A stretch of 34,098 nucleotides of DNA. It comes from Paraflavisolibacter caeni. GTDB taxonomy: Bacteria > Bacteroidota > Bacteroidia > Chitinophagales > Chitinophagaceae. The DNA is taken from positions 1 through 34,098 of the forward strand of contig NZ_JAOTIF010000041.1 in NCBI RefSeq assembly GCF_025628885.1. Direction: 5' to 3'. Positions within the stretch are counted from its first letter, which is position 1, and each line of letters opens with the position of its first letter. Both the position numbers and the translations under genes were made by a program. Positions 109-34,098 of the stretch are shown here, piece by piece. The notes beneath the pieces are model-generated. The model did not search any database. It worked only from the letters and a program-made list of their open reading frames with translations, and had not been told where the DNA came from.

Positions 109-723
109 CTAAATTCGTAATGCTTCTAAATGATCTTCTAAACCATGATTGCCCGCTAGTTCCAAACATCTATCTACTCTTTTCTGCCATACCATCATAC
201 ACGCTCCTCTCTCATCATGACTTATCAATTGTCTATTCCCATTCCCCACCATCCATTCCCCCTTCACCACCCTCACATCAGCTATTTCCCTTCTGCCTGT
301 GCTCATCATCCCCCTCACCGCCAGCTGTTTCCTCAGCCACTGCTTATCTCCCTGCATCCTCATGTAGAGCCGTATAGCTGCCTGGTACACATGCTTCCGC
401 TTCTTTCGGGGCAGGGTCTTTCGGAAGGCCTCCTTCCTTTCCGCATCCGAGAGGATCCACCTTGCATACACCACTGCCTCCTTAAACAAATCCCTCCTTA
501 CCCGCTGCTTTTCAGAGGCTACAATCCCACTCATGTCCGGGTAGCGGGTGATCACAATCCTTTTTTTCCACTTCTTTTTCTTGTTGCCCCGATAATGCTT
601 CACCACAAAACACTTCCCAATCGAGCCCCGGATCATACCCAACAACAAGAAAGGCACCTGCTTGCCATCCTTGATCACCACCCTTTCTTTACTATTGATA
701 TAGACCTGTTTCATATTGCTCAT
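109..723 (-). CDS. Hypothetical, strongly basic protein
   Basis: I do not recognise the family. The product is about 204 residues, exceptionally rich in Lys and Arg, with basic clusters such as RGNKKKKWKKR and LPRKKRKHVYQ. No signal peptide or membrane segment is visible, so it is probably cytoplasmic, and the charge would suit nucleic-acid or ribosome binding (inference only). The reading frame opens at 753, but I prefer the ATG at 723: it is preceded by a purine-rich AGGGGGAAATGG on the minus strand. A further ATG lies at 714. The gene is isolated, with 427 bp of repeat-bearing intergenic DNA upstream and the window edge about 100 bp downstream. The opposite strand is also open for long stretches, so codon statistics would be needed to prove coding. 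Confidence 0.6.
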   Translation of the reverse strand: MSNMKQVYINSKERVVIKDGKQVPFLLLGMIRGSIGKCFVVKHYRGNKKKKWKKRIVITRYPDMSGIVASEKQRVRRDLFKEAVVYARWILSDAERKEAFRKTLPRKKRKHVYQAAIRLYMRMQGDKQWLRKQLAVRGMMSTGRREIADVRVVKGEWMVGNGNRQLISHDERGACMMVWQKRVDRCLELAGNHGLEDHLEALRI

Positions 724-841
724 CCATTTCCCCCTAAAGCTACTCCACCCCATTCACAACCAAAAACCTTGTGGACGTTTTGGCCTAAAATGGCAGGAAA
801 TGACCGCTTTTGTCCGCTTCAACAGAATCCATCCTTCGTAC

Positions 842-885
842 CTTAAGTATACCTGAAGCATACCATCAGTATACCTTAAGTAAGG
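842..885. repeat. 11-bp tandem array, family A (four units)
   Basis: Four consecutive 11-bp units: CTTAAGTATAC, CTGAAGCATAC, CATCAGTATAC and a diverged CTTAAGTAAGG. The core AAGTATAC is near-palindromic. The array lies in the 754-1180 gap between the basic protein and the pectinesterase. A closely related array lies at 24910-24953. The period is exactly 11 with no indels. Confidence 0.8.
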
Positions 886-944
886 CTAGAGTATTCCAAC
901 AGCATCCCTCCATTCCCCCTACTTCCCCCATACTTACTCCATAG

Positions 945-977
945 CTAAGCCGTACCATAGCCGTACTTAAGCCTAGG
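945..977. repeat. 11-bp tandem array, family B (three units)
   Basis: Units CTAAGCCGTAC, CATAGCCGTAC and a terminal diverged TTAAGCCTAGG. It is separated from the family A array by a C-rich spacer (906-929, containing CCCTCC and two runs of five C). The same order, A then C-rich tract then B, recurs at 24910-25050, and there too the last unit ends in GCCTAG. Confidence 0.8.
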
Positions 978-1032
978 CTACTTCGATCATCCTTCGACTA
1001 TCCTTCGACCATCTTTCGACTATGCTTCGATC
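978..1032. repeat. 11-bp tandem array, family C (five units)
   Basis: Five 11-bp units directly abutting the family B array: CTACTTCGATC, ATCCTTCGACT, ATCCTTCGACC, ATCTTTCGACT and ATGCTTCGATC. The invariant core is TTCGA. I saw no second copy of this family in the window. Confidence 0.8.
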
Positions 1033-1069
1033 TGAATTGAGCAACTGCTCATAAAGAAGGGGAAAACAA

Positions 1070-1099
1070 CCTGAAGGCTGAACGCCTTCCAGGCTTTTA
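1070..1099 (-). terminator. Possible terminator after the pectin locus
   Basis: An imperfect hairpin, CCTGAAGGC facing GCCTTCCAGG with a short loop and one bulge, lies downstream of the pectinesterase stop codon. On the minus strand it is followed by TTGTTTTCC, a weak T tract; on the plus strand it is followed by TTTT, so it could act in both directions. The distance of about 80 bp from the stop codon is acceptable. Confidence 0.4.
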
Positions 1100-1180
1100 A
1101 TGGAGTCAATAGAGCTGGTCCTAAAGATACAAAACCAACCCCCACCTGCCAAGTTTTGAACCCCTCAATTTACACATCCC

Positions 1181-24633: not shown

Positions 24634-24737
24634 TATTAATTAGTGGTTTGTAAATATTTAAAATTTAAAACTCCTTCATCCATACATCATCTATCCTTTG
24701 TTGCTGAAGCATATCTGCTGTATAGATACTCCAAACC

Positions 24738-24781
24738 AAAGGCATAGTAAAGGCATAGCAAATCCTAGGATAAAGCATGAA
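24738..24781. repeat. 11-bp tandem array, family D
   Basis: AAAGGCATAGT and AAAGGCATAGC are two near-identical 11-bp units, followed by AAATCCTAGGA and TAAAGCATGAA at the same period. The CCTAG element of the third unit also ends the family B arrays. It lies upstream of the sulfatase gene in the 24634-25161 gap. Confidence 0.65.
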
Positions 24782-24909
24782 ACTGGCAAATTCCATACTT
24801 TTTGTATGCCCATTTCCAGATACCAGACTCCTTTTCTCCTAATCACTAAAACCCCAAATCTTTAAATCCCAAATCCGAAATCCCAGATCTACCCCTCTGC
24901 TCCTTACCT

Positions 24910-24953
24910 TCAGTACAGGTCAAGTATAGATCAAGCACACTTCAAGTATACTT
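24910..24953. repeat. 11-bp tandem array, family A, second copy
   Basis: Four 11-bp units: TCAGTACAGGT, CAAGTATAGAT, CAAGCACACTT and CAAGTATACTT. The core AAGTATAC is shared with the array at 842-885, including a variant unit with AAGCA in both places. Confidence 0.8.
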
Positions 24954-24975
24954 AGTGCACGAAACAGAATTCGAC

Positions 24976-24996
24976 CCCTCCCTTCCCCCCTACCCC
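24976..24996 (-). other. Predicted G-quadruplex motif in the spacer of the repeat element
   Basis: The minus strand reads GGGGTA, GGGGGG, AAGGGA, GGGG in succession: four runs of at least three G with loops of one or two bases, an ideal G-quadruplex pattern. It lies between the family A and B arrays. The corresponding spacer at 906-929 has a similar but weaker G-rich pattern. Confidence 0.7.
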
Positions 24997-25050
24997 TTGA
25001 GCCGTACTTGAGCCGTACCTTAGCCGTACTTTAGCCGTACTTGAGCCTAG
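24997..25050. repeat. 11-bp tandem array, family B, second copy
   Basis: TTGAGCCGTAC twice, CTTAGCCGTAC, TTTAGCCGTAC, then a diverged TTGAGCCTAG. The core AGCCGTAC is identical to the array at 945-977. The rest of the 24634-25161 gap holds a loose series of AAATC-type words (24854-24889), a small CATAC/GTATG hairpin (24794-24808) and no gene that I can see. Confidence 0.85.
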
Positions 25051-25124
25051 AAACCCATTTTTACACATCCAATACCCTAATATCCTCATATCATTCCCTT
25101 CACCCCATTCCTCATTCAAACTTG

Positions 25125-25139
25125 TCCGCCTCTGGCGGA
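25125..25139 (-). terminator. Possible terminator or attenuator after susD
   Basis: TCCGCC-TCT-GGCGGA is a perfect 6-bp GC-rich hairpin 22 bp after the susD stop codon. On the minus strand it is followed by CAAGTTTG, which lacks a proper T tract. It may partially reduce read-through into the sulfatase gene. Confidence 0.4.
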
Positions 25140-25161
25140 TTCGAATCATTCGTCATTCAAA

Positions 25162-33906: not shown

Positions 33907-33994
33907 TCACCCTAAGTTCCGTACCTACCTTTTCCACAAATCCCGGATTTTTATTTCACATTTTAGATACTACTTTTCTCATTTCCTCCCCAAC

Positions 33995-34027
33995 CTTACA
34001 GAGACCTTATAGAGATGTTATAGAGAT
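33995..34027. repeat. 11-bp tandem array, family E (three units)
   Basis: CTTACAGAGAC, CTTATAGAGAT and GTTATAGAGAT, with exactly the 11-bp period of the arrays at 842-1032 and 24738-25050 but a different unit sequence. It lies in the 273-bp stretch right of the alpha-glucosidase gene, where apart from the promoter I see nothing else. Confidence 0.75.
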
Positions 34028-34098
34028 TCTGTGTTAAAAGTCAAGAGATTTTTACTTTAATTTTGTGTTTTAGGCGGCTGTATGCCAGCCTGTTTAGG

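Follow-up and report, generated by a model that had tools for sequence, protein, structure and literature searches.

A narrowly distributed family of dispersed intergenic composites of 11-bp repeat units in Paraflavisolibacter caeni, and a linked basic-protein gene as its possible parent form

A 34,098-nucleotide stretch of the Paraflavisolibacter caeni genome (Chitinophagaceae; assembly GCF_025628885.1, contig NZ_JAOTIF010000041.1, positions 1 to 34,098; hereafter the window) contains two intergenic loci that belong to a large family of dispersed repeat composites, distributed between the genes of the 7.0-Mb genome and built of modules that keep one order, one strand and, at the better preserved locus, one unbroken 11-bp register. 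Most modules are arrays of 11-bp units, and one end, the A2-P end, is common to the composites and to units of ~1 kb that carry a gene for a strongly basic protein. In the explanation that we propose, the individual composites would be internal deletion or duplication derivatives of a longer ancestor. We rate the chances as even that all these belong to one narrow family of mostly gene-free 11-bp-unit composites, with the basic-protein gene units as the parent form.

On the plus strand at 24708-25157 (copy 2), a short CAAAGGCATAG array is followed by an TCAAGTATAC array, which a C-rich stretch separates from a TTGAGCCGTAC array with a CCTAG end, and a related series occupies 787-1163 (copy 1). 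A preliminary description, made from the letters of this DNA, had reported an A array, a C-rich spacer and a B array in the same order and on the same strand at both loci; a heavily gapped direct alignment reproduces this, extending over the A array and the C-rich part as far as a common CCTAG. The three parts had also been called dissimilar, which does not apply to copy 1, because its C-rich part itself consists of degenerate 11-mers in the common register. The A, C-rich, B and D parts at 842-1039 form one continuous series with a lag-11 self-match of 0.63 (z = 11.3; 5000 shuffles: mean 0.27, standard deviation (SD) 0.03, maximum 0.385). The self-match is 0.68 at 24912-24956, 0.90 at 24996-25047 and 0.87 at 33993-34026, the last being the three-unit relative already noticed near the right end of the window. 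Across the five arrays tested, the observed value lay 4.3-11.3 SD over the shuffles, and a shuffle equalled it only for 24737-24768 (0.67, z 4.3; best of 5000 shuffles also 0.67). Chance tandem duplication was rejected on this test.

The modules of copy 1, given with their frequency in a census of 66 clusters and lying on the plus strand unless stated, are P (787..838; ~10-bp repeats, TTTTGTCCGC; 12/66), A2 (841..881; TTAAGTATACC array; 23/66), Z and C (884..940; C-rich, 11-bp register kept; assigned by module search and register), B (941..976; TAAGCCGTACC units with a CCTAGG end; assigned by direct inspection, under the module-search threshold here), D (978..1030; TTCGACCATCC array; 41/66) and T (1031..1163, minus strand; a 133-bp non-repetitive segment with 35 aligned copies). 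Copy 2 comprises H (24708..24775; 11-bp CAAAGGCATAG units, a CCTAGG end, then ATAAAGCATGAAA; 11/66, at either edge of other composites), A1 (24912..24957; TCAAGTATACT-like 11-mer array; 12/66), E2 (24952..24990; TTAGTGCACGAAACAGAATTCGACCCCTCCC, within the previously described C-rich spacer; 17/66, a module edge at several other loci), B (24996..25050; TTGAGCCGTAC array with a CCTAG end; 24/66), E3 (25043..25091; GAGCCTAGAAACCCATTTTTACAC..CAATACCCTAATATCC, replacing D-T after B; 8/66) and K (25113..25157; a short hairpin TCCGCCTCTGGCGGA with a ATTCGAATCATTCG flank; 15/66, recurring beside T and E3). The A arrays of the two loci are thus different modules, A2 and A1, copy 2 has the additional E2 segment (TTAGTGCACGAAACAGA..) relative to copy 1, and the modules beyond the aligned part differ on both sides. 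The loci are different sub-types of one modular family, rather than two copies of one composite as first thought. Neither module content nor flanks are constant, whether the two window copies or copies in general are compared, and a single segmental duplication of one intergenic region was rejected on this ground. CCTAG occurs six times in the window, three of them at the array ends reported earlier (972, 24764 and 25046); CCTAG(G) terminates three different modules there and may mark module junctions.

Dozens of further copies were found in the genome, in line with the proposal of a dispersed composite element. BLAST against the own genome, in which 40 of 63 candidates were scored for the 24905-25060 query and 40 of 119 for the 780-1200 query, gave at least 44 places at E <= 10 (at least 42 at E < 1e-4) for the former and at least 48 at E <= 0.01 for the latter, the query itself counted in each case. 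The core of module T (GGYTGGTTTTGTAYCTTTAGG, <=1 mismatch) occurs 36 times (21 + 15 by strand). In an 800-kb sample from contigs C1 and C12, chosen blind to content, module search gave 11 clusters in either 400-kb part, single-module hits included; by extrapolation, ~190 clusters would be expected in 7.0 Mb. Their order is (F, H or Gm) - P - A2 - Z - A1 - E2 - C - B - (D-T or E3) - K/H: 367 of 373 module pairs are concordant with it (shuffles: 187, SD 13, maximum 236), and all ranked modules (227/227) lie on one strand. Module content, array length and unit content vary widely among composites, and modules A, B, D and F are built of strongly dissimilar units. At L013/L038 (G000:C1:257525-257961; G000 is the own genome), two composites are fused head to tail near TTTTGAACCCC, which resembles TTTTGACCCC of module E2.

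The copies look like products of internal deletion and duplication because their arrays often change by whole 11-bp steps: 98 of 238 gaps in the array alignments are multiples of 11, and in T none of 77. Measured from where the A2 region starts, T lies at a distance of 3 modulo 11 in 13 of the 18 anchored T copies (18/36 without anchor). Placement follows the background of gap types. The 50 of 61 clusters with a called gene on both sides lie in tandem, divergent and convergent gaps in the proportion 28/16/6; in a 400-kb sample, the 107 gaps of >=150 bp divide as 64/34/9. The preliminary description placed both copies downstream of one gene and upstream of another, and this stands for the window, with copy 1 lying 3' of a pectinesterase gene and 5' of the open reading frame (ORF) at 109-753 and copy 2 lying downstream of a susD gene and upstream of a sulfatase gene; as a general rule it fails. 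The midpoints of 4 of the 61 clusters fall inside called ORFs of 136-186 aa, which are probably array-derived.

The ORF at 109..753 (minus strand, 214 aa; hereafter P0001) begins just past module P, so that the A2-P end of copy 1 lies directly upstream of it; its start is likely near 723, because the ATG at 753 precedes the promoter-like TAGCTTTA. It encodes a basic protein (50 K+R, 20 D+E; 44-50 and 18-20 in the three proteins compared) and belongs to a multi-copy family with P-A2 upstream. In the unselected 800 kb, tblastn found four relatives, one of them truncated, and all four have P-A2 immediately upstream; with the window gene and a further member at the end of contig C41, both also preceded by P-A2, the count is 6/6 genes; the 800 kb hold five P-A2 pairs, one of them without the gene. 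The gene-bearing units of ~1 kb align with one another over 0.3-1.1 kb at 76-92% identity within unrelated surroundings. Ratios of nonsynonymous to synonymous change for three pairs (0.20, 0.10 and 0.13 over the aligned genes; 0.08, 0.07 and 0.11 over the first 140 codons), with synonymous change near saturation in two of the three, show on the coding sequences compared that the gene family is under purifying selection. No Pfam, NCBIfam or PHROG family matches P0001. A phage or plasmid origin was rejected, there being no match in phages, plasmids or viral contigs. A same-genus genome, G012, encodes a relative (31% over 99 aa, E 1e-10 in a single comparison) whose start is preceded, at a distance of 86 bp, by a D-type array of three units.

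In the proposed explanation, the basic protein of ~200 aa would bind the DNA of P and the arrays, the gene-bearing units would be the parent form, and the gene-free composites would be non-autonomous derivatives, spread either with the help of the protein or by recombination between arrays. A second multi-species protein family (MAxQxGxIKxxGT..) of no known function also has a P-like repeat upstream (L021:490-1245, L077:601-1356, L074:821-1423); a more distant member, L140 in G022, is apparently without it. The first 125 residues of the second family gave no match among phages, and BLASTP shows no similarity between L021 and the first family's relative in G012.

Module T is well conserved (mean column identity of 87% over the 35 copies). 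On its minus strand in the window lies a promoter-like ACTTG (1150-1154), followed after 20 bp by TATCTTTA (1122-1129) and directed into the arrays. The invariant columns of the alignment include ACTT and TA-CTTTA, 20 bp apart, the G of ACTTG is nearly invariant, and the conserved ACTTG-20-TAYCTTTA lies on one strand of T. This arrangement resembles the Bacteroidota promoter pattern. In 200 upstream regions of the own genome, TTG, 19-21 bp and TANNTTTR matched 11 times in sense and 4 times in antisense orientation (shuffles 3.1, SD 1.8), an enrichment in sense orientation; T copies contribute none of the sense matches and a Gm repeat contributes one, and three belong to both genes of a divergent pair and are thus counted as antisense too. 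From this motif, T probably carries a promoter that would transcribe the arrays. A general promoter or terminator role was rejected on the orientation of T and the background-like gap types.

The family appears narrowly distributed in the genome sequences sampled. The T core (<=1 mismatch) had no match among the other Chitinophagaceae genomes drawn (0/293), a draw that did not include the same-genus genome G015. G015 holds at least three related copies, three of which consist of the promoter-like core followed by 11-bp arrays of G015's own. The 24905-25060 query matched none of 57 relatives at E <= 0.001; with the 780-1200 query, three of 17 same-genus genomes (G012, G013 and G015) showed matches, all of them short (23-46 bases). 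In a scan of samples, intergenic period-11 regions numbered 28 in 400 kb of the own genome and 5 in 200 kb of G015, and none were seen in samples of G003, G012, G008, G034, G025 and G022 (40-200 kb each); G012 nonetheless holds one short D-type match.

Several results weigh against the proposed explanation. P0001 shows no relation to a transposase of the libraries searched, the PDB search yielded no more than two matches, with E about 1, and modelling gave no usable fold for the lone protein (mean predicted local distance difference test score, pLDDT, 41.5). Of 12 places with P examined in the own genome, two lie before an intact P0001-family gene, one before a truncated gene, two before start-like DNA only and one before a gene of the second family; the remaining six lie before neither. 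The ends of the composites are fuzzy, because they run into other repeat modules. Terminal inverted repeats were not found at the two window loci, where copy 1 has one imperfect 19-nt inverted pair inside and copy 2 one short palindrome outside the arrays. No target-site duplication was demonstrated for the composites, and no empty orthologous site was obtained for any of them. As many as 140 of the 238 array gaps are not multiples of 11. Of 32 T copies, 19 are directed to the next gene and 13 away from it, so that T is not a general promoter for its neighbours; a conserved RNA fold for it was rejected, covariation supporting 1 of 17 pairs on one strand and 0 of 14 on the other.

The strongest competitor is an inert origin, which we hold possible at rather less than an even chance: the composites would be selfish or slippage-derived intergenic repeats, moved by ectopic recombination and gene conversion, and the gene family would merely carry one module upstream. 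Placement like the background, fuzzy ends lacking inverted repeats at the window loci, array gaps compatible with unequal exchange or slippage, and the samples of the same-genus G003, G008 and G012 free of period-11 regions all agree with it. However, module order and strand are far more regular than random exchange predicts, the link between P-A2 and the gene holds in 4/4 unselected cases, and a related promoter-plus-array layout recurs in G015. A bolder form of the parent-gene explanation is a tentative suggestion, given about one chance in four in our judgement: a new class of bacterial mobile system, in which a small, very basic protein, not tied to mobility within the libraries searched, spreads and selects helically phased 11-bp arrays with P and has left at least 100 gene-free mosaic derivatives.

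We regard as unlikely a regulatory or nucleoid-organising role, by which the arrays would be helically phased sites for the basic protein, dispersed through their action on chromosome structure or transcription. Spacing of 11 bp would set the sites on nearly one face of the DNA, the protein is very basic and conserved, and the distance between A2 and T shifts mostly in register; against this, the composites prefer no gene orientation or gap type, the units of modules A, B, D and F are strongly different, and the distribution is narrow. Least probable is a functional small RNA that starts at the T promoter and in which the 11-nt repeats would bind protein or serve as guides. The one-stranded motif and the similar G015 layout would fit it; against it, covariation gives no support for a folded RNA in T, array length and unit content vary widely, and Rfam offers no family at gathering score for the composites of the window and of four loci (its only match in the window is a tRNA, and the four loci gave only matches under the gathering score, so that a known Rfam family was rejected).

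Among described elements, BrickBuilt of Porphyromonas gingivalis is the nearest by comparison of features; its description tells of an element built of a single 23-nt unit, bounded by terminal inverted repeats and present 19 times in ATCC 33277 (PMC4596501). Both are multi-copy intergenic elements of Bacteroidota with a limited host range, a leader, tandem array and tail, promoter capability and no transposase inside. In contrast to BrickBuilt, the present family combines 11-bp units of several types within one register and occupies many more loci; it has a linked basic-protein gene, and no inverted repeats were found. We read it as BrickBuilt-like with a candidate parent gene; it may spread in either of the ways proposed above. 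STAR elements of Staphylococcus are likewise interspersed intergenic direct repeats that expand and contract, with loci differing by species (PMC3532100), but sequence and host differ, and the fixed multi-module order and linked gene found here go unmentioned in the consulted parts of that source. REP and BIME repeats with RAYT proteins, in the portions of the reports consulted (PMC2817692, PMC3116915, PMC3733652, PMC8266576), share many intergenic copies, mosaics, one protein family and insertion of insertion sequences into them. REPs are short palindromes tied to tyrosine transposases, whereas the units here are direct 11-mers and not palindromic units of 20-40 bp; PF01797 (Y1 transposase) gave 0 matches from 8 candidates and was positive in 5 of 14 control genomes, and REP/RAYT was rejected. 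Searches of open-access literature listed no description of this element.

The family is a further, well-defined case of Bacteroidota type among the known intergenic repeat families of narrow distribution. Two features make it tractable: its history can be reconstructed from the strict order of the modules, and one of the element's ends is locked to a conserved gene whose function is unknown. Provided that the protein does act on the arrays, one protein and one DNA fragment would be enough to test directly how gene-free intergenic repeats spread in bacteria. The family may also offer a natural case of an IS110-type element with repeat units as its target.

The last point concerns the right end of the window, where module F (33993..34026, plus strand; a TTATAGAGACC-type array of three units assigned by module search and lag-11 self-match) abuts the end of an 11-copy repeat with IS110-like ends (34022..34098, plus strand; sequence shared by contig ends) at the contig break. 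Eleven contig ends carry one common sequence and 11 others, including this one, carry another (L142-L152, L202-L212), left and right ends being counted side by side and not as pairs. On the first side, 11/11 continue as GAGACCTTA, and then whole TTATAGAGA units follow in 5/11 and other 11-mer-like sequence in 6/11; the left flanks of the second side have at least two TTATAGAGA units in 7/11, one in 3/11 and none in 1/11. The repeat sits in or beside TTATAGAGACC-type units. Its interior was not found in the assembly. An rRNA operon as the source of the 11 common contig ends was rejected, the rRNA contig C55 not being among the matches. A complete, diverged relative on contig C34 (L217:2054-3473) encodes an IS110 recombinase (DEDD_Tnp_IS110 + Transposase_20), does not lie in such an array, and matches the 11-copy repeat at 82% identity over 79 bp at one end and over 15 bp exactly at the other.

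In the sections consulted, IS621 is described as having a bridge RNA with left and right target guides and an 11-bp target, and as inserting into REP repeats (PMC11208160), much as the 11-copy repeat lies in or beside F-type units and has an IS110 relative on C34. A 9-nt match to the target lies inside each element: that of TTATAGAGA, in the visible end of the 11-copy repeat, to the array (shuffled chance 0.03), and that of AGGGTGTCT, in the C34 element, to the target there (shuffled chance 0.05); by eye, partner matches at the complementary position, AGGTCT (6 nt) and TTTTGAG (7 nt), have a spacing within a few nt of the other pair, such short matches being common in shuffles. This guide-like layout is as bridge RNA target guides would give and is suggestive only. 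IS110 would account at most for the occupied F sites, not for the composites.

A second repeat end (GGAGACCCTAAAATATTTTG..) breaks a T module at CCCCTTATTT (L156:3175-3276, the end of contig C42) and recurs at three other contig ends (L178-L180); it is probably another insertion sequence. A plasmid search with the region gave one weak match only, to a Planktothrix plasmid over the 7-bp repeat stretch. The window carries a 7-bp tandem repeat of AAATCCC at 24849-24890, and period-7 tandem repeats are also frequent between genes elsewhere: G015 has 29 such regions in a 200-kb sample, and G012 has 13 within 80 kb (samples L103-L112 and L123-L126).
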